From Utricularia gibba (taxonomy: Eukaryota; Streptophyta; Magnoliopsida; Lamiales; Lentibulariaceae), in contig NEEC01000010.1 of assembly GCA_002189035.1 (NCBI GenBank), forward strand, positions 1 to 64,000: 64,000 nucleotides of DNA. The letters run 5' to 3'. Position 1 is the first letter of the stretch; the number at the start of each line of letters is the position of its first letter. Below are positions 10,761 to 53,423 of this stretch, one piece after another. The notes under the pieces were generated by a model. The model was not told the DNA's origin. It saw only the letters and a program-made list of their open reading frames with translations, and ran no database searches. A program made the position numbers and the translations under genes.

Positions 10761-11848
10761 GAGGTTGCGGAATACGTGTATACGTTAGAATCTTTGTTGA
10801 TTTTGCGAGATGTTCTCGTATGTCGCCTTGTCGGTGAAAAGTTAAAATCTTTGCTGATTTGCGAGATGTTCTCGTATGTTGCCTTGCCTGCGATTATTGT
10901 GATAGCATGTGATTGCGAGATGTTCTCGTATGTAGCCTTGCTGACGATCATCATAATAGCATGTGATGCACGAAATCTGATTATTTTGGATTGTTTTGCT
11001 GCCTTAGGATGCACAAAATTTGATTCATGATTGATGCTTTCGAGAATCATATCTTACGTGTATATGCGCAGCATGATGATGCTTTATATGTGTGTAGTCG
11101 TGGGGCATGATGGCCTTTGCACGAATTTTGATCATGTTGATCATATTGGTGAATTATCGATGCATATGATGTTTGATAATTTATTTGTGACCAAGGCATC
11201 TAGGGTCAATTAGGATTTTCGAGCTTTATGTGTGAAAATCCAGGGATATGATGCGTTATGAACGAAAGGGCAAGGGTTGTCAAGATGCCTATTTGATAGG
11301 ATATTGATATCCATAATGCAAGAGTTGCATATGGAAAAATCCCCTTCTAAATAATTAAGCTTATTCCTTCCACTAACATAAGGAGAACGAGAGTCATTTT
11401 TAGTGTATAGAGTTGTTGGCTACCGTCAAGCTCTCCACTACACATGACATGTTCGAATTATGGAATTAGATTCACGGTGGGTTGGCTTAACTGATTTTAT
11501 CAACTTGTTGACTAAAGCCAAGGTTGGTAAAATTGGAGGAAAGGTTGAGGTAAATAGTTTTTACATTAAGAGTTGATGACTCAATGATGCAGTGGTTGTA
11601 TGAGAGATACAATTGGCATGAGATGACTACCTGTTTCATTCATTAAAACTTGTTGGCTACAGTCAAGGTGGAGATGAATGAAATGGGACACTATCCCACT
11701 AAGAAAATCTGATTTTCTCATTTTGTCAGTAAGGGGCTGCCATCTCGAAAAACATAGTGGGAGTATATCACATCTAATAAAGACCAATTAAATGTGATTT
11801 AAGGAACACTACATGATGTGTTTGCTTTCTCTTCTTCAGGTTGAAGAT
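10761..11848 (+). mobile_element. Copia leader (5' UTR) with a tripled hairpin repeat
   Basis: No gene is visible here. GCGAGATGTTCTCGTATG occurs at about 10,805, 10,861 and 10,915 (periods 56 and 54 bp). In each copy CGAGA-TGT-TCTCG can fold on itself. Frames such as 10,776-11,030 run through these repeats and resemble no protein. The leader ends at the gag start region. Confidence 0.7.
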
Positions 11849-12861
11849 ATGTCTTCCAGCGTGAATTTGAGATCCATTCTAGAGTCCAACAAGTTGGTTG
11901 GCTCGAATTTTACTGATTGGCACCGCAATCTGAGAATTGTTCTCAAGGCGGAGAAGATTGCTTACATCCTTGAGCAAGATGTTCCTGCACAACCCAGGGC
12001 TAATGCAGCTGAAGATGTTCGGCGTGCATATCAGAAGTATCTAGATGATGCTGAGCTTGTCTCCTGTATCATGCTTGCTTCGATGGCACTTGATCTCCAA
12101 AAACAGCATGAGGCGATGACTTGCCAACAAATGATAACACACCTCAAGGATCTGATTGGTGAGCACACACGACTTGAAAGGTTCAAGACATCAAAGCTGT
12201 TGTTCAATTGTCGCTTGGTAGAAGGATGTTCTGCTGCTGATCATGCGACATTGATATTGAGTTGCATTTAGAAGTTGTCCACTCTTGGTTTTGTGTTGGA
12301 TAAGGACTTGAGTATTGACTTAATCCTTACCCCACTACTTGATAGCTACTCACAGTTTGTGATGAACTATCAGATGAACAAGATGGATCAAACTGTTCCT
12401 CAATTGATTCAGTTACTCAAGTCTGTTGAGACAACTATCACAAAGGAACAAAAGAATGTCATGCTTGTCTCTTCAAGGAAAAAGGTTTCCAAGAAGAAGA
12501 GTCAAGACAAGAAACTCAAAGCTAAAAGTAAGATCAAGAAGAAGAAGCCTGTTGAAAAACCGGCTAAGGGTGAATGCTTTCATTGTGGGAAATCTGGTCA
12601 TTGGAAGAGAAACTGCAAAGCCTATCTAGAGTCAATCAAGGGCAAGAAGCAGAATGAGAATTCAGCTTCAGGTATACACATGATTGAGATTAATACTACT
12701 ATCAAGAATGGTTCTTGGGTGTTAGATTTTGGTTGTGGTGCTCACATTTGCACTAACATGCAGGACCTAATGAGTAGTAGAAACTTGAAGAAAGGCGATG
12801 TTGACCTAAGAGTTGGGAATGGTGCAGGAGTTGCTGCCATGGCAGTTGGGACAAGAAGTAG
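11849..12861 (+). pseudogene. Ty1/copia gag and start of protease, broken
   Basis: I place the start at the ATG at 11,849 (MSSSVNLRSILESN) rather than the ATG at 11,813, because the gag-type sequence begins there. A UBN2-like gag region follows, then an in-frame TAG at 12,269-12,271. The same frame continues through a Lys-rich stretch to a CCHC zinc knuckle (CFHCGKSGHWKRNC, about 12,575-12,616) and the beginning of an aspartic protease. The protease active-site triplet expected as D-S-G reads DFG. At about 12,861 the element stops: the next bases belong to an integrase read from the other strand. The stop, the altered active site and the rearrangement make it non-functional. Confidence 0.88.
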
Positions 12862-14205
12862 TATCCCATGGTTTCTTGTGGATATCCCAGAAAGAGACAC
12901 TTGTCAGATTTGTTCTCCAACTTATCTGACTTCAACCTTCTTACATAAGCAGGGCATCCCCAAGCTTTGAGGTAGGAGAAACTCGGTTTTCTACCAGTCC
13001 AAATCTCATAAGGAGTGGTTTCAACCGATTTCGATGGGGCTTTTTTCAAAACATGAGCTGCTGCCTCTAAAGCATATCCCCACATGGACTTTGGTAGTTC
13101 TGCAAAACTCGTCATGGATCGAACCATGTCAAGCAAAGTTCGATTTCTCCTCTCAGAAACAACATTGTGCTCAGGTGTATTAGGAGGAGTTCTTTCTGAG
13201 ACAATACCATTGTCCTTGAGATGATTCTTGAATTCATTACTCAAGTATTACCCACCACGATCTGATCGAAGTTTCTTGATGGAACGCTCAAGCTGGTTCT
13301 CGACCTCCATCCGAAACTCTTTGAACTTTTCAAAGGCTTCAGATTTTCGTTTCATCAAGTAAATGCGTCCATATCTTGAATGATCATCTGTAAAAGTGAT
13401 GAAATACGAGAAACCCCCTCTAGCAGTGATGCTCATTGGACCGCATACATCAAAATGTATTAAATCCAATAAGTTTTCAGCTCTTGCTCCTTTTCCAAGA
13501 AAAGGTTGCTTTTTCATTTTTCCCAATAAACAAGATTCGCATGTTTCATAAGATTCAAAATCTTCTAAGTCCAAATATGCCAATCGATATAAGTACTCAA
13601 CACGCTTCTTGTTTATATGGCCTAAATGACAATGCCAGAGGTAAGAATTCAAGACATTGTCAATCCTTGGCCTTTTTATGCACATGTTAATCTGTTCCGA
13701 ATCATGATGATCCAAAACATATATTCCGTTTACTATCGTAGCAGTACCAAATGCACATTCCCTCGTCGTATGGAACAACAATTGTTCTTTATAGAAAACT
13801 CGAAACCAATCTTGTCCAAACAAGAAATAGAGACGATGTTCTTAGACAATGAAGGAACACAATAAACAGAATCTAATTCAAGAGATAATCCAGAAGGTAG
13901 GGCGATGTGGCAAGTCCCAACTGCCATGGCAACAACTCGTGCACCATTCCCAACTCTTAGGTCAACATTGCCTTTCTTCAAGATTCTACTACTCATTAGG
14001 TCCTGCATGTTAGTGCAAATGTGAGCACCACAACCAAAATCTAACACCCAAGAACCATTCTTGATAGTAGTGTTAATCTCAATCATGTGTATACCTGAAG
14101 CTGAATTCTCATTCTGCTTCTTGCCCTTGATTGACTCTAGATAGGCTTTGCAGTTTCTCTTCCAATGACCAGATTTCCCACAATGAAAGCATTCACCCTT
14201 AGCTG
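12560..14205. repeat. Inverted repeat, arms 12,560-12,860 and 13,917-14,205
   Basis: The zinc-knuckle/protease segment occurs on + at 12,560-12,860 and as its reverse complement at 13,917-14,205, differing by only a few bases. The loop between them (~1,056 bp) is unique integrase and protease sequence. Confidence 0.88.
12862..14205 (-). pseudogene. Inverted Ty1/copia zinc knuckle-protease-integrase block
   Basis: Reading down from 14,205 on the minus strand gives the CCHC knuckle, a protease (14,086-13,733, again DFG), a GAG-pre-integrase zinc-binding region (HLGH and CESC, about 13,640-13,530), and an integrase core with HFDVCGP, DDHSRYG and the Glu of SERRNRTLLDM. It ends near CLFLGYPQ at 12,862. 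A frameshift lies near 13,775 and an in-frame TAA near 13,245. There is no RT or RNase H. The first ~290 bp duplicate the + strand block ending at 12,861 in opposite orientation. Confidence 0.88.
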
Positions 14206-14477
14206 GTTTTTTGTGGATGAATAGCCTAATCCTATGACATCTTTGTAGTTAAAGATTTTACTCATATTTTTGTTAAAGTGCTAATGACACTTGGTGATGA
14301 AATGTGCAATGGAGTTGCATACATCAATTAAACTTGTTTATTATGAGATATAGCACAAAATGCAAGACCAGCATCTTAAATTAAAATTATGTTTATACAA
14401 ACTACATGATGAAGGTCACCATAAAGCATGTGAATTACTAGAGTCCCCAAGCTTCTCTAGAGTGTCTAGGCATTCTT
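14206..14477. other. No gene seen
   Basis: AT-rich DNA between the inverted copia block and a TRIM LTR. A minus-strand stretch just right of 14,205 may be unrelated retroelement sequence. Nothing else is recognised. Confidence 0.5.
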
Positions 14478-16490: not shown

Positions 16491-19472
16491 CCATTTTTTT
16501 TCTGGATATTTTGATCAAGCAAGTGCCCCATATGCGAAGACATTGAAGAATTTGCCATAACAAAGAGATGCATGTCTTCACCATGTTAAAGTAAATGACA
16601 TTTCCAATTGGTCATTTTCATATGTTCATTTTTCCTCATGTAATTGCTACCCTTTCATTTCTTCTTTGCTTTTATTTTTCTCTTTAAATCAAAGTGCTTA
16701 AAATGAGGTACCTTACAATCTTTCTCCAATAATAGACATTATCTCTTCAAAATAACTTTCAAGCTTCTTAAGGTCCTTGTGATACATTCACAATAAAGAG
16801 GGTTGTGTATTGTTGGTTTAAGAAGATATAGTCAATATAGGTAAATAAGAAGATGTGAGTAAGGGATACAATAGAGTTTGTCAACCAAAAGCAAGAAATA
16901 CAAGCATATAAAGGAGAAAAAACAAGGTTTCAGGGAATTGACTACCGATTGAACATGAAGGATTTTTTGAAGAGTGATCTTGAAACTATCTTCATAATCA
17001 TAGTAGATTTTCTTATGGTATATGGAGCACCTCAGGTTTTTCACATTTTTCCAAGTAACACTTCTGCAAATCTCATTTATTGTTTTTAATTAATAAGTGA
17101 TTTTGTATCACTATAAAACACATATTTGCATTATTCTTTAAGATATTTTTTTATCTATTTTATGTTTCACTTTTTCATTACTTTCTATTTATTTTATATC
17201 TTTTATACCAATTTAATTTTTCTAGGGAGAAAATACATTTTATGCACTTTTGGATTTTTGGGCTAATTTTAGGAAAAAGCTAGACCCAATAATTTATAAG
17301 TTTGATAAAACACTAGAATGAGTACAAGAATGAAGATTTGATCGAACATCCAACACTTAGATAAAGATTTAAGATACTTTTGAAATAGTATGGATAAGAG
17401 ATAAATAGAATATTTAATCTAAGCCCATTAATAAAACCCAATAGAAGATTTAAATTTTTTCTCATATAAATACTCTTTTACTCAACTATCAGAGATATCT
17501 TTTGATCAATTTTTCTCTTACTTTTCATATTTTGGGGTTTTTAATACTTTACAGTCAAGCAGGTGCATGTAAACCATTATGATTAAGGATCCTAGTGAAG
17601 CCATGTTTAAATAAATCTCTACATGTGTGAATTTTTTAATATTTAATTTTAGGTTTTGATTTCATTTCTGTGATATTTTATTTATACTATTATGCTCTTG
17701 ATTACTATAAAATTCAAAGAGTGTGTTTTATTTGTGGTATGAGATATGATGGAATTTATTTTAATTGGGATTTAAAGATTGGATGAGATTTATTTAATTG
17801 GGATTTCATTATATTTATCTGTAGTTGCATAGAAAATAACATGTATTTATGTATTTTTGATTTAAATGACATAATTGCTCTCCTTTGAATTAAAAACTTA
17901 GACATTAATACCTAAGATTTCTTGTTCGTTTCAAAATTCTTTTAGGTTGAAGCATACGGTGATTGATGTTTTTTTTTCTTAAATTTGATTCTTGAAAAAT
18001 ATTTTCAACTTATATATTCCGTTTTTTGAATTTATTTGTTTGGTTTGACGAAAGCCATTTTCCGCATCGAATCATTAATCCATAAATAACTATGCACATT
18101 AAATCATGAGATGCATGAAAACAAAGCATTTCCTAAATGAAATTAAAAACCCAAGCCAGTAAAATATGAAACTAGCGGTGAAAAATAAGATAAATGTGTT
18201 TAACTTACATCAAATTTCGGGATTAACTTACTGTAAAACGTGAAAGTTTTCTCTCTCCAAACCAATCAAACTATATGAAAAGACATCAAGTTTTCCGATC
18301 AATAGTTGCAAATGAGAAGAAAAAATTGATGTGTAATTATGTGCACGAACAAGAAATTTTGGCAGGTCCCTAATAGTCGAGATCTTGAAACCTCAGAATT
18401 TGTTTGTTGATGTGTAATTATGCACACGAAAAAGAATTTGTTTGTTGATGGCACGAAAAAGAAAGGTTTCATTTTATGATAAAAATGAAGGAAATGATGG
18501 TATCTAAAAATAAATGCTCAATCGGATGTTATTGTTATTGGCCAAATTTTCTTGTGAAGGGTGATTTATAGAAGATATGATGGAATATGAGAAAACATGG
18601 ATGATGGTAATTTTACAAGTATATAGAAACTGTCCAGTAATTAAATAAGATAATATCGATATGAAATTGTTATTAGAATTTTCTTTTGAAAACAATGATT
18701 CAACAAGACTAGAAAAAAACAAAAATTTGATTTGAAAAATAATAAGAAAAGTAGCATCCATCTTAATCAAAACTCATTTAAATTTATGTATGCAAACTTT
18801 GAGAATTCACCTATTTGTACAAGTTATGAGGATGCTATTATAAAATAGTACTACTCAATGATCTTTATAATAGCATCCCTTATTTAGTTGAATTATATAA
18901 TTAACCACGCCATCATAATAATTTCACCTATTATGATAACTCATATCTAATCCTTACACCTGTATGAGATTAAGCCTCCTTTATGGGTGTCAACTCAGCT
19001 CGTGGTTCATGCGTGTTAAGGCTCAATTTCTATTTTCACATCTGGGCCTTGTTCATAAGGGAGCATCTTCTTAGGCAATGCGTTTGTAGGTGTTCCACAT
19101 ATAGATGTCTTTTCTCAAATATTTTGTACCGGAGTTTTTGTTATGTGAACATAATTATCTGGCTCCTTTAGGGTGTGTCATACTCGTGTTCTATTTATTA
19201 TTGGGTTCACGAATGTGGCTCCCTCTCTCAGTGCGTATCTTCTGAAATTATGAGTATGTGAAAAGCTAATTGAGGGTTCAAAATCAATTACGATAATTGA
19301 TACCGCATTGAGCATCGAGGATGAGATGTTTGAGCTTTTGTTGCAAAAGTTTCCTTACCTACAACACTGGTTTCACTAAACAACTCAACATTCTCTCAAT
19401 CGTCCCCCCACCCCCCGCGCCCCTACAGCTACTGCTGCGGCGTCAGCGAACGCTCTCCCTATCGACGCTGCA
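16491..19472. other. AT-rich intergenic region, no gene seen
   Basis: Long A/T runs and only short unrelated frames. The last ~120 bp before DEP1 (from about 19,380) turn C-rich (CCCCCCACCCCCCGCGCCCC near 19,410) and probably form the DEP1 5' UTR and core promoter. No clear TATA box was placed. Confidence 0.55.
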
Positions 19473-22257
19473 ATGATTAGTAATACCTCTCAGGCCTACC
19501 TACAAAGTAGATGTGTCTCCGAAACCAAGGCCCTCATCGCGGATCTCTGCCGTCAATTCTATCATCTGGGCTGGGTATCTGGAACTGGCGGCAGCATCAC
19601 CGTCAAAGTTCACGATGATTCCATTCCCAAAGCCCAACAGCTAATTGTCATGTCCCCCTCAGGTTCCTCCTCATCTTTAGGCGATTTTCGGACTTCCCAG
19701 GGTATCAACGATGCGTTTTCTTTCGTCTGTTTTGTAGGTGTGCAGAAGGAAAGGATGGTGGAAGAGGATATGTATGTGCTGTCCTCTGATGGTCACCTGC
19801 TGACTCAGCCTTCATCCAAACCTTGGCCGCATAAGCCACCTAAATGTTCTGATTGCGGACCGCTTTTCATGAAGGTATTAAAATACCTGACTTGAGTCAC
19901 CACCTTCAAGCTTCGTCCATCTTGTTCACTCTTACTGTCGCTATTCATTTAGCACAATATCATTGGATGCTCATCCCCGTGTAAAATCTTCTTGCTTCAA
20001 TACTTTGATTTCGTGGTCATTTGTCTGAACAAGCAGCTCCAGCATCAGTTGAAAAAGAAAGCTGGCGGATAAGTAATGAAATTCATCTTGCTTTGCATGT
20101 TTTTTATCTTGCATTATCTTTGTCCTCATGGTAATGCTGAATGGTTCCTTGAATATGTAATTCAATATTCCAAGCGCTATCATGTACTTTAGGCATACGA
20201 AATGGGTAATGCTGGGGCTGTCATTCACAGCCATGGTATGGAATCTTGCCTTGTCACGATGCTCAATCCATCTTCAAAAGAATTTCGGGTATGGATTTGT
20301 TCTTTAATCATGAAGATGAAAGTTGGCATTATCTATAATCCCTAAGATCCTTCGTTCTTTTTCTTATAGATTACCCACATGGAAATGATAAAAGGAATTC
20401 AAGGCCATGGATATTATGATGAACTTGTTATCCCAATCATAGAGAACACTGCACATGAAAGAGAGCTCACAGATTCTCTTGCAGATGCAGTACACTCGTC
20501 TTTCCTGCCTAGAAACTGTGTATACTTTTGATGTAAAATACAAACTTCATCACTTGATAGAACCATTTTACTAAAACATTGCAGATTATAGCTTACCCAA
20601 AGGCCACGGCTGTGCTGGTCCGCAACCATGGAGTTTATATATGGGGGATTCCTGGATCAGTGCAAAGACACAGGTGGTTTTTCAGGGGTTAATATATGTT
20701 AGGAACACATTTTTATGTGCTTGTCGTCAACTTCTGTGATAGTGATCATTCGTCCAGAACTATCTATCCTGTTCCCATCCTGAGTTTTGTTTTTTTAGAG
20801 GCATGAAATTGGAAAAGTGCTTCTTATGTCATTCCACCTTTTATGTTTGTACATTTTTTCATTTGCAAATTACATGTCCAGGCTGAATGCTATCACTATC
20901 TCTTTGATGCTGCCATTAAACTTCATCAATTAGGATTAGACTGGTCATCACCATCCCATGGTCCGATTGATCACTCAAAGGGGTTCGGAGGAAACAACTG
21001 GAACCCAGAGTGTTTGCAAAAGGAAAGGCTTGTGAGGAAGATAGTCACCCACCTAATGTGAGTACCATAGCCCTTTGATGTTACATAATGAGATATCGGC
21101 CACTACTACTTATTCTTGATTGAATAAAATTGGCCAACTGCAGCGCTGCATTTTGCTGGACATTGAAGGAACTACTACTCCTATTTCATTTGTAACAGAT
21201 GTTCTTTTTCCATATGCTCGTGACAATGCTGGAAAGCATTTGGAATTAACATACGATTCTTCAGAAACACAGGATGATATCAAGATGCTCATTGCTCAAG
21301 TGAGATGGCAATCCGGAATATCACATTTTCCCATTGCATTAAAAGTAATCGTTACACATTTTCTTGGATCAGATACATGAAGATCTTGAGAAGGGAATTG
21401 CTGGAGCAGTTCCCATCCCCTCCAATGGAAAGAAAGAGGATGAAATAGCTGCTTTGGTGGCTAACGTACAGGCTATGATCAAAGCTGATCGGAAGATTAC
21501 TTCACTAAAACAACTGCAGGTTTTATGGAAAATGATCTGGCTTATTATGGCTTTTGAGCTTCTAGTATTCAAATTTTTCTGTTTCATCCTCAGGGTCATA
21601 TATGGAAAACAGGGTTTCAAAGGAAGGAGATTGAGGCAATTGTATTTGATGATGTGCCTGCAGCTCTTGAAAAATGGACTGCTCTTGGAATTAAGGTTAC
21701 TCTTGCGCTCCTTTCTGTGCTCTACTTATAGGAAGCACCATTTTTAGTGAATGTGTTTTCGTTTTAGGTTTATATATACTCCAGTGGTAGCCGGTTGGCC
21801 CAGAGGCTCTTGTTCAGCAACACGAATTTTGGAGATTTGAGAAAACATCTCTCGGGTTTTTTCGACACCACTGTCGGGTAAGCTAGTTCTGACGAGATAG
21901 CAATTATAATTAAAATTTGCTTCCCAACTCTGGGTCCGTTTGCCCTTCTCACTTTTAACAACACGTCTGCTGGTTCAGTAACAAGAGAGAAACAAAAAGC
22001 TACAAAGAAATCACCGAGTCACTTGGGGTGGATAACCCATCCGAAGTTTTATTCATCACCGATGTCTACCAAGAAGCGGCAGCTGCGAGTGCAGCAGGTA
22101 TCCAGGAAGTAGTTTCTCAACTTTTGCTTATTTTGGTGATGATCATCCGCACATATGTGTTTCAGGATTGAATGTCGCAATCACTGTACGACCTGGTAAC
22201 GGACCTCTCCCAGAAAATCATGCATTCAGGACAATAAGGTCCTTCTCTGAAATCTAA
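19473..22257 (+). CDS. DEP1: Methylthioribulose-1-phosphate dehydratase / enolase-phosphatase (DEP1), 12 exons, one-base frameshift in exon 5
   Basis: Bifunctional enzyme of the methionine salvage (Yang) cycle. The N-terminal class-II-aldolase-like domain dehydrates 5-methylthioribulose-1-phosphate. The C-terminal HAD domain is the enolase-phosphatase that forms acireductone. It is expected in the cytosol. Exons by homology and GT/AG sites: 19473-19662, 19738-19874, 20193-20288, 20370-20489, 20585-20673, 20882-21031, 21144-21299, 21373-21519, 21594-21695, 21768-21877, 21979-22097, 22166-22257. Visible motifs are GTGGSI, metal-binding IHSHGMES and NHGVYIWG (dehydratase), then [15 protein letters not shown] and ITDVYQEA (phosphatase). 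The exons total 1,508 nt, one short of 503 codons, which fits the family length (~500). The missing base lies in the G run at 20,643-20,647. As written, the frame ends at TAG 20,931-20,933 and loses the phosphatase. Intron 1 (75 bp) has no stop in frame. A second donor, GTGAGT at 21,058, would break the frame. It is a real gene or a very young pseudogene. Confidence 0.93.
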
Positions 22258-39928: not shown

Positions 39929-41268
39929 CCTTGAGCTTTTGAGTTATCTTGATTACTTTTCAGGAAAATCTGAACTTTCCGACATTGTTTTTCTGAGTAT
40001 GAAAATGTCTGAGACACAATTGATTTCTTTTATTATTCATGCCCCATTACTAGAGTTAAAAACCCTACTTGAGCATTTAAAGTCTTGTTGACAATGAGAC
40101 TTTACCTGTTATTGTCTCTAGTACACTAATCCTTGAATAGGAGAAAAAACTCTAGAGTGTGCTTCAGAAGCACAAACAGGCAACAAAGCCAATTCGCCAG
40201 TCTCAAAGGAGATTGAACCATCCAATGATTGAAGTGGTCAAAAAGGATATTCTTAGGTTGTTGATGGTATGTATAATCTATCCTATTTCGAATAGTAAAT
40301 GGGCTAGCCCTGTGTAGGTTGTCCGAAGGAAAACATGGATCACAGGTATGGCCAATGACTAGGGGTAAATTCTTCCTAAAAGAGTGCATAAAGTTGAACA
40401 CAGCCACCAAGAAGGATCACTACCCACTTCCATTCTTTGACCAGATGCTAGAAATACTTGTTGTAAGGAGCCACTACTGTTGCTTGTATGGTTACTCCAG
40501 TTTCCATCAAATACCCATGACCCTTGAAGACCAAGCAAATGTTGTTTTTGTTTGTCCTTTTGGTACTTTTGCTTACCATAAAATGCCTTTTGGATTGTGC
40601 AATGCACAAGCAACATTTCAACACTATGGGGTTAGTATTTTTTCAGAATATGTTGAAAACATTATTGAGGTTTTTATGGATGACTTCACGGTTTGTGGAA
40701 ACAGTTTTGATGAATATCTTGATAACTTGTCACTACTTTTGAATTGATGTATTGAGACTAACCTTATTTAGAATTATTAGAACAAAGGTATCATTTTAGG
40801 ACATTTTTCTACCAAAGGGGAATTGAGTTTGATAAGACGAAGATTGAGGTAATCCAAAAATTACCTTACCCCATTCTTGTGAGAGGTGTACATTTTTTCC
40901 TTGGACATGTTGGACTTTACTGTAGATTTATTCAGGATTTTTTGAAAATTTCATCTCCTTTGTATACTTTATTGCATAAGGATGTTGAGTTTCATTTTGA
41001 TAGAGATTGCAAAAAAGATTTTGATGTTTTGAAAGAAAGGCTTGTCTCACCTTCCATTATTCATGCTCTAAATTGGAGTCTACTATTTGAACTAATGTGT
41101 GATGCAAGTGATGTAGCTCTAAGTACAGTTTTGGGACAAAAGGTGCAGAAGAAATCTCATGTTATCCACTATGTATCCAAGTGCCTTGATGATGCCCAAA
41201 AGAGCTACACCACAACAGAAATGTTGGAGATTGTGTTTGCCTTGGAGAAATTTAGATCTTATTTCTAG
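39929..41268 (+). pseudogene. Athila reverse transcriptase and RNase H, degenerate
   Basis: After the solo LTR the host element resumes. RT runs from about 40,080 (IYPISNSKWASPV, then KKDHYPLPFFDQML and FAYHKMPFGLCNAQATF) to the catalytic FMDDF at about 40,675. RNase H follows at 40,879-41,268 (ELMCDASDVALSTVLGQK, SYTTTEMLEIVFALEKF). Stops lie at 40,744 and 41,266. The element breaks off at KFRSYF and is joined to a different integrase. Confidence 0.85.
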
Positions 41269-51425: not shown

Positions 51426-53423
51426 ATGTTCTCATTTCTTACTAAGAATCTCATACTCCTCTTCATTTTCATGCTTTTGCTCTTTAGCCAACAATTCGAT
51501 GGTGCCCTCTCACATGAACAAGATCCACACGATGATAGCGATCATATGGAATTTTACAAGTTCATCAAATGCCATGTTGGTAAAGGTAATATTTGTCATG
51601 GACTTGTAACATTCCATGGAAAAGAGCGTTTTTATTGTTGTAATTCTCATTGTTGTGATGTGCTTAGTGACACAAACAACTGTGGTGTTTGTGATCATAA
51701 GTGCAAGTCTGGAGAGAAATGTTGCAATGGGATCTGCAAGAACATTAGAAGCGATAGTAACTATTGTGGAAGTTGTTGGAATCGATGCAAGTCAAGTGAG
51801 AGATGCTGTAATGGTAATTGCAAAAGTCTTACACAAGATAAAGATCATTGTGGCACATGTGGCAATAAGTGTATGTTGAATGAAAGATGTTGCAGCGGAA
51901 TTTGCACCAACATTACAAGTAACAAGAATAGTTGTGGTAGTTGTGGTAACAAGTGTGATTCGAATGAAATATGTTGCAGTGGACATTGTAGGAATGTTAA
52001 GAAGCACAACAACCACTGTGGCACTTGTGGGAATGGATGTAAGTCTCCAAATGTATGTTGTGATGGTATTTGTAGAAACTTTAGTATAGATAATGACCAT
52101 TGTGGAAATTGTGGAAATAAATGTGGTCCTGAGCAAAGATGCTGCAATGGACAATGTAGGAAAATAAAAAAGGACAATAAGCACTGTGGAAGTTGTGGGA
52201 ATGGATGTAAGTCTCCAAATGTGTGTTGTGATGGTGTTTGTAGAAATTTTAATATAGATAATGATCATTGTGGAAGTTGTGAAAACAAATGTGGTCCTCA
52301 TAGAAGATGCTGCAATGGACATTGTAGGAATGTTAAGAAGCACAACGACCACTGTGGCACTTGTGGGAATGTATGTAAGTCTCCAAGCATATGTTGCGAT
52401 GGTGTTTGTAGAAACTTCAATATAGATAATGACCATTGTGGAAGTTGTGGAAACAAATGTGGTATTCATAGAAAATGTTGCATTGGACATTGTAGGAATG
52501 TTAAGAAGGACAACGATCACTGCGGCAATTGTGGGAATGGATGTAAGTTTCCAAACGTGTGTTGCAATGGTGTTTGTAGAAATTTTAATATAGATAATGA
52601 CCACTGTGGAAGTTGTGGAAACAAATGTGGTCCTCATAGAAGATGTTGCAATGGCCATTGTAGAAAAATTAAAAATGATGATAAGCATTGTGGAAGTTGT
52701 GGAAATAATTGTGCCTTAGGGTTCAAATGCTGCAGTGGAATTTGCAAGAATGTCAAAAGTGACATCAACCATTGTGGTAATTGTGGCAATAAATGTAAGT
52801 TTAATCAAAGGTGCTGCAATGGAGAGTGTAGGAACATTAACAAGGATAACAAGCATTGTGGAAGTTGTGGGAATGGGTGTGCTTTAGGGTTCAAGTGTTG
52901 CAATAAAGTTTGCAAAAATATTCAAAGCGACAACAATAATTGTGGTCGCTGTAAGCGCAAATGCAAGTTAGATGAGAGATGTTGCAATGGAAAGTGTATG
53001 AAGATTAAATCAGATTGTGGCATATGTGGGAATGGGTGCAAGTCACGAGATGAAATATGTTGTGATGGGGTTTGCAGAGTACCTAAAAAGGACAATAAAC
53101 ATTGTGGTCGTTGCAACAATAAATGTAAGTTGAATGAAAGATGTTGCAATGGACATTGTAGGAATATTAAAAATGATAGCAATCATTGTGGAAGTTGCGG
53201 GAGACGTTGTGCACCAGGTTTCAAGTGTTGCAATGGAGTTTGCATAAATATTAAAAACAATAACAATAATTGCGGTCGTTGTAAGCGGAAATGTAAGTCG
53301 GGGCGCACTTGTTGTGATGGCAGTTGCAAGAATCTCTTTAAGGACAGGAACAATTGCGGGCAGTGCAACAAAAAGTGTAATCCGGGTGAGAAGTGTGAGA
53401 ATGGATTTTGCGGATATGGATGA
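51426..53423 (+). CDS. STIG1-family secreted protein with 21 tandem six-cysteine modules
   Basis: The gene is intronless and encodes 665 residues from the ATG at 51,426 (an upstream in-frame TTG is not a plausible plant start) to the stop at 53,421-53,423. Residues 1 to ~29 form a signal peptide (MFSFLTKNLILLFIFMLLLF). Residues 30-85 carry the usual STIG1 lead-in with CCNSHCCDVLSDTNN. From residue 86 to the end, 21 modules follow the pattern CGxCxxxCxxxxxCCxGxC plus ~9 polar residues. Each is 28 residues long except 16 (25) and 17 (29); the last is partial. Ordinary STIG1 proteins are about 130-160 residues with one such region. STIG1 of tomato and tobacco acts at the pollen tube surface, and Arabidopsis GRI in ROS signalling. 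The role of this long form is unknown. It should be apoplastic and disulfide-rich. There is no stop or frameshift, and A/T-ending codons fit the region. Confidence 0.93.
   Translation: MFSFLTKNLILLFIFMLLLFSQQFDGALSHEQDPHDDSDHMEFYKFIKCHVGKGNICHGLVTFHGKERFYCCNSHCCDVLSDTNNCGVCDHKCKSGEKCCNGICKNIRSDSNYCGSCWNRCKSSERCCNGNCKSLTQDKDHCGTCGNKCMLNERCCSGICTNITSNKNSCGSCGNKCDSNEICCSGHCRNVKKHNNHCGTCGNGCKSPNVCCDGICRNFSIDNDHCGNCGNKCGPEQRCCNGQCRKIKKDNKHCGSCGNGCKSPNVCCDGVCRNFNIDNDHCGSCENKCGPHRRCCNGHCRNVKKHNDHCGTCGNVCKSPSICCDGVCRNFNIDNDHCGSCGNKCGIHRKCCIGHCRNVKKDNDHCGNCGNGCKFPNVCCNGVCRNFNIDNDHCGSCGNKCGPHRRCCNGHCRKIKNDDKHCGSCGNNCALGFKCCSGICKNVKSDINHCGNCGNKCKFNQRCCNGECRNINKDNKHCGSCGNGCALGFKCCNKVCKNIQSDNNNCGRCKRKCKLDERCCNGKCMKIKSDCGICGNGCKSRDEICCDGVCRVPKKDNKHCGRCNNKCKLNERCCNGHCRNIKNDSNHCGSCGRRCAPGFKCCNGVCINIKNNNNNCGRCKRKCKSGRTCCDGSCKNLFKDRNNCGQCNKKCNPGEKCENGFCGYG
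52017..52688 (+). repeat. Alternating A/B modules (168-bp higher-order repeat) in the STIG1-like gene
   Basis: Modules 5-12 occupy exactly 672 bp. Odd modules read KSPNVCCDGVCRNFNIDNDH-like and even ones GPHRRCCNGHCRNVKK-like, repeating as a 56-residue pair four times. They are nearly identical at DNA level, whereas modules 1-4 and 13-21 are diverged. Recent unequal exchange in the centre of the gene is the likely cause. Confidence 0.88.

Follow-up and report, generated by a model that had tools for sequence, protein, structure and literature searches.

How a protein of 665 residues arose in a family known for small ligands is the question raised by one gene of Utricularia gibba, carried on the 64,000-nucleotide stretch of contig NEEC01000010.1 analyzed here (the window). 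In the paper collection that we searched, STIG1 and GRI proteins appear solely as small single-domain ligands, and no description of a multi-module plant STIG1 was found there, which is weak evidence of absence. The first-pass annotation, made from the letters of the window, claimed an uninterrupted and intronless frame that encodes a STIG1-type protein, and a single ATG-to-stop frame of 665 codons was indeed found (Table 1). Membership in the family was borne out as well. A profile search returned a single Pfam family, Stig1 (PF04885), which matched 11 stretches far above the gathering score (395.7 bits versus a cut-off of 24.1; E of 6e-121), and the cap and module layout agreed. The family hallmarks, namely an N-terminal cap (N-cap), a CGxC...CCxGxC module and a C-terminal cap (C-cap) with a CGY(A/G) end, were recognized by alignment with paralogues L002 to L005 and by the cap hairpins of a structural model. 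The usual STIG1 protein has one cysteine-rich region with 14 to 16 cysteines, and from that size the window protein departs with 665 residues, 131 cysteines and 20 internal modules. The earlier statement that STIG1 proteins have one cysteine-rich region holds for most paralogues in the genome but fails for L002, which has six modules; small size lies outside the Pfam definition and is typical of the family without being strictly required. We conclude that the window protein is STIG1 by sequence and departs from the usual small form by architecture.

How many modules the protein contains depends on how its ends are counted. There are 21 CGxC modules by sequence count, 18 of which are exactly 28 amino acids long, the others being module 16 (25 amino acids), module 17 (29) and the C-terminal one (22). 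The claim of 21 full-pattern modules was correct for 20, as the C-terminal module reads C-E instead of CC and is a cap; likewise, the cysteine richness first noted was real, but the figure of about 125 was not, and the actual count is 131. When the N-cap, which has six cysteines and precedes module 1, is added to the 21 CGxC units, the structural units number 22. Within a module we name the cysteines C1-G-x-C2-x3-C3-x5-C4-C5-x-G-x-C6, after which comes a 9-residue linker. The whole protein is about 70 kD in size and net basic, with charged modules alternating. Opposite the array, the minus strand carries an open frame at 51795-52715 (307 codons from stop to stop, 298 residues from an ATG), which probably arises as a side effect of the repetitive codons.

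Table 1. Positions of the parts of the 21-module STIG1 gene in the window, and of its six-module paralogue elsewhere in the genome
Feature	Position	Strand	Remarks
Whole STIG1 frame	51426..53423	+	Intronless; 665 aa, 131 Cys; ATG at 51426, stop ends at 53423
Signal-peptide-like N terminus, residues 1-28	51426..51509	+	Hydrophobic core, A-x-S before the likely cut; read by eye
Short acidic stretch, residues 29-48	51510..51569	+	From alignments; paralogues have a longer variable region there
N-terminal cap, residues 49-85	51570..51680	+	Module-like, without the C2 position; 6 Cys
Extra cysteine C77	51654..51656	+	R or V at the same place in paralogues
Twenty internal six-Cys modules with 9-aa linkers	51681..53354	+	Pattern C1-G-x-C2-x3-C3-x5-C4-C5-x-G-x-C6
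Modules 4-12, youngest block	51933..52688	+	A/B alternation, 168-bp period
Modules 16 (25 aa) and 17 (29 aa)	52941..53102	+	Sole internal length variants; every Cys kept
C-terminal cap, residues 644-665	53355..53420	+	5 Cys, without C5; CGYG end as in STIG1 paralogues
Six-module paralogue L002	C411:419362-420180 (L002 1375-2193)	minus	Cap, five modules and cap; 273 aa, 40 Cys

Judged from its N-terminal sequence the protein is likely secreted, and a full-length AlphaFold model places a helix over residues 2 to 25. No dibasic site precedes the first cysteine in residues 29 to 48, and the chain reads DHMEFYKFIKC ahead of the cap. The N-cap has six cysteines compared to five in close paralogues. 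The additional residue, C77, makes the cysteine total odd, and therefore at least one cysteine must be unpaired within the chain.

The gene might be a dispensable duplicate, an array that expanded among abundant transposons and is unexpressed or functionless and free to drift. Copia- and gypsy-like frames are abundant in the neighborhood, the codons are AT rich (GC3 of 0.33), and there is the one unpaired extra cysteine. A drifting gene is, however, difficult to reconcile with 665 codons that contain neither a stop nor a frameshift and with the retention of every module cysteine despite wide divergence at silent sites. Among the 18 modules of 28 residues, all 294 pairwise differences in cysteine codons fall at the third position, and other codons differ at all positions. 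Same-parity comparisons within modules 4 to 12 gave a pooled dN of 0.126 and dS of 0.56, a ratio of approximately 0.23 that rose to 0.30 when the cysteine columns were left out. Moreover, when the gene was simulated to evolve neutrally to 0.05 substitutions per site, a mean of 3.8 stops arose and 15 cysteines were lost, and the real modules have lost none. Because cysteine codons differ only silently, dN/dS is low and neither stops nor lost module cysteines are found, the sequence indicates that the protein is under selection, or was until recently, and we regard drift as improbable. Assembly collapse and damage by unequal exchange, which the first-pass annotation had named as grounds for doubt, were considered separately and rejected: no exact internal repeat in the frame is longer than 34 bp, so that usual read lengths would tell the copies apart and collapse is unlikely, and stops and lost module cysteines both number zero.

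Several other features were noted elsewhere in the window. Five head-to-tail copies of a unit of about 2.09 kb occupy the contig start (1-10100), and all five share an identical stretch of 300 nt; an Rfam search of the unit gave no match. Frames of copia type that encode a CCHC zinc knuckle follow on both strands at 11798-14248; those at 12272-12967 (plus) and 13736-14248 (minus) have near-identical protein sequence and are probably two inverted element remnants. Exon-like frames at 19380-21744 resemble what we take to be a plant bifunctional methylthioribulose-1-phosphate dehydratase/enolase-phosphatase, and frames at 40277-41265, about 10 kb upstream of the STIG1 gene, presumably belong to a gypsy-like reverse transcriptase.

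How the array grew can be read in part from its periodicity. That an intact gene had undergone tandem expansion was claimed from the outset, and the 21 modules in an unbroken frame free of stops agree with it. Tandem Repeats Finder reported periods of 84, 168 and 336 bp. Modules 4 to 12 alternate between an A type, which is basic with linkers of the form RNVKK.. or RKIK.. (KK/KIK), and a B type, which is neutral to acidic with the linker RNFNIDNDH (FNIDNDH). Copies of the same type are 73 to 92% identical in nucleotide sequence, compared to near 60% for A/B pairs, and we infer from the alternation and the closer likeness of same-type copies that the last growth rounds used a two-module unit of 168 bp. 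A single internal STIG1 module would have been amplified by repeated in-frame duplication to give cap, 20 modules and cap, with the latest rounds in two-module steps.

Other members of the family in the same genome provide points of comparison. About 15 other STIG1 loci were found, most of which encode a cap, one six-cysteine module and a C-cap (two modules by CGxC count) with 14 or 16 cysteines in the domain. The paralogue L002 resembles the window gene in its layout of cap, six-cysteine modules and cap, its 28-residue period and its intact frame, but it has five internal modules of older divergence (57 to 70% nucleotide identity between them). Within this one genome, module number therefore steps from 2 to 6 to 21. 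A module tree had too few columns to separate independent from common origin of the six- and 21-module expansions. A third locus with extra modules (L006/L016, G000:C98:361959-362443) consists of two frames of 87 and 129 residues and is possibly a damaged multi-module copy. Finally, a 344-residue STIG1 frame (L012, 697-1728) has a long proline-rich, extensin-like SPPPP stretch ahead of its STIG1 domain, a sequence compatible with a possible wall-anchored form.

Tandem arrays of the module are not restricted to plants. In a scan of 84,980 prokaryotic genomes, many proteins contained arrays of up to 28 modules within the stretches examined, mainly in Myxococcota but also in a Chloroflexi metagenome-assembled genome (L059) and an archaeon (L064), and all five arrays tested scored above the Pfam Stig1 cut-off. 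The module and the linker motif are common to these arrays and the window protein. The prokaryotic units, however, are mostly 41 to 43 residues long with eight cysteines, and some are fused to other domains, whereas the window protein has 28-residue modules with six. Large proteins, apparently extracellular, carry the arrays, and one of these proteins has FG-GAP repeats. In one bacterial protein (L048, 1117-2979), the Stig1-like modules are flanked by dense CNCYNYxCNC repeats. As judged from these sequences, tandem arrays of the STIG1 module are not unique, and an array in a plant STIG1 gene is the unusual part.

How the cysteines pair is constrained by their numbers. In the canonical and six-module paralogues, the caps contain 5+5 or 3+5 cysteines (an odd number in the N-cap, five in the C-cap), for totals of 16, 14 and 40. 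If all cysteines pair, odd caps at both ends of a chain of six-cysteine modules require an odd number of bonds across every linker. The prokaryotic units follow the same arithmetic. The short ones (26 to 31 residues) have six cysteines including CC in 47 of 47 cases, and the long ones (38 to 49 residues) have eight in 990 of 992, equal to the five of a C-cap plus the three of an N-cap. Parity alone was nonetheless rejected as proof of linker-crossing bonds, as one cap-to-cap bond would satisfy it too.

Because a lone end-to-end disulfide is compatible with parity, we looked at which cysteines are lost together. The downstream C2 was missing at 14 of 1,137 prokaryotic junctions, and at 10 of the 14 the upstream C5 was also gone; these ten come from five loci, two each, and may represent few events. 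By comparison, a cysteine near the C5 place was absent from 35 of the 1,123 C2-bearing junctions, many of which had C5 displaced by a longer loop. The association is strong by Fisher's test (p of 3e-12), a value computed from unweighted counts of cases that are possibly few events. The four C2-less junctions that retain C5 mostly appear to have a displaced C2. Outside the junction count, L054 has CD for CC, and its next module reads CGPQGATC. In addition, C3 and C6 were lost together in one module each of L074 and L100, and C1 and C4 are the only pair left by elimination. The simplest scheme from parity and co-loss gives each unit two internal bonds, C3-C6 and C1-C4, and ties C5 of one unit to C2 of the next. 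If so, the first unit needs no C2 and the last needs no C5, and the plant caps fit: in the C-cap, CC gives way to C-E, C-Q or some other single cysteine, and the N-cap lacks the C2 position. In the window protein, two bonds in each of 22 units and one at each of 21 junctions would give 65 disulfides, consume 130 cysteines and leave C77 over. The 22 units would then be joined across their linkers into a single covalently chained rod. That STIG1 modules are links chained by C5-C2 bonds, that plants are able to extend such a chain, and that the window gene encodes a 22-unit disulfide rod of alternating charge and thereby an extracellular matrix or multivalent signaling protein of an undescribed kind, we propose only tentatively.

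Structure prediction was compatible with a repeated unit. The best of five models of modules 10 to 15, built from 16 sequences, had a pLDDT of 84.8 with a pTM of only 0.53 and one beta-hairpin per module. The full-length AlphaFold model, with a mean confidence of 58.4, was good at both ends and low between them, and it was used only for its two ends and for its hairpin count, which was 22 with one in each cap. An alignment that placed the N-cap out of register was left out of the structural reading. A Foldseek search of the PDB gave nothing below an E of 0.001, with weak TNF-receptor and EGF-like rows; VIA-align had no match at a Z of 2, a viral structure library had no significant match, and a sequence search of the PDB had no match to the window protein.

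Whether the array is a store of small peptides turns on the linkers. The first-pass annotation suggested a precursor cut at basic linkers, and plants do make multi-repeat stigma precursors: the potato type II inhibitor (Pot II) of Nicotiana stigmas, NaPI, is a polyprotein from which proteases free cysteine-rich peptides (PMC2259423). The KK or KIK/KIKK linkers of A-type modules also resemble the KIKK/GMRC site (slash at the cut) at which the metacaspase AtMC9 cleaves GRIM REAPER (GRI) of Arabidopsis (PMC13157962). Moreover, the odd cysteine number of both caps would permit one cap-to-cap disulfide, which may close a ring of self-contained modules. Dibasic linkers, however, follow just 6 of the 20 modules (4, 6, 8, 10, 12 and 17). 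Of 1,000 distinct linkers from prokaryotes, 956 are nine residues long, and D at position 6 and N or H at position 9 are usual; among the 19 linkers of nine residues in the window protein, D6 is present in 15 and H or N9 in 17. Because length and motif are common to the prokaryotic arrays, the linkers look like a structural element. NaPI, which is expressed in the stigma, is likewise a plant protein of tandem cysteine-rich repeats, but the sequences are unrelated, and its repeats are closed units of about 50 residues with eight cysteines, joined by hypervariable EEKKN linkers that are cut (PMC2259423). AtMC9 cuts GRI, a secreted protein of the STIG1 family, ahead of the cysteine region, at SKTR/LLVS and KIKK/GMRC, and an 11-residue peptide is released (PMC13157962). 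The upstream region and the sites that flank the peptide are absent from the window protein, whereas L002 keeps a GRI-like R/FLAS...KVKK/GDKC stretch before its first cysteine (TSRFLASQTSKVKKGDKC). Finally, the co-loss of C5 and C2 implies a bond across each linker, and if such bonds span every linker, cuts would nick the chain without freeing modules. We consider a cleaved precursor quite unlikely, and a multivalent STIG1 rod most likely of the two.

What a rod would do may be considered in light of the smaller relatives. STIG1 influences the secretion of exudate, and in tomato it works on pollen tubes via LePRK2 and PI(3)P (PMC7059789, PMC9797866). The mature form of LeSTIG1 is a 7-kD peptide, which binds LePRK1 and LePRK2 (PMC9797866). 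The STIG1 proteins of tobacco, petunia and tomato share with the window protein a signal-peptide-like start, the N-cap, the module and a C-cap that ends in CGY, but they have one internal module where the approximately 70-kD window protein has 20. By extension from the family, the window protein would be secreted and act outside the cell. The rod would display many STIG1-type surfaces at fixed spacing, on the cell wall or membrane, and in its middle block basic modules would recur at every second unit in alternation with neutral ones. Alternatively, the protein might serve structure or defense in the wall or exudate and play no part at receptors; its basic modules might, for example, attach to acidic pectin or microbes. 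The net basic charge and the alternation of charged modules suit such a function, as do the large proteins that carry the prokaryotic arrays. Moreover, an interval associated with rust in Populus contains tandem STIG1 genes, several of which have Ka/Ks of at least 1 (PMC7297788). The known role of STIG1 is nonetheless in receptor and exudate signaling, and we think a purely structural or defensive protein unlikely. On balance, and with modest confidence, we favor an intact, module-amplified STIG1 gene whose product is a secreted, disulfide-chained rod, most likely a multivalent ligand or an adhesive matrix protein, in line with the multivalent ligand or wall protein suggested by the first-pass annotation.

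The 21-module member, the six-module intermediate and the prokaryotic arrays together show that the STIG1 domain is a capped chain of repeats. They also supply a specific proposal for disulfide pairing in a family known to act in pollen-tube growth and cell death. Ultimately, they may provide a natural test of whether STIG1 signaling depends on valency.
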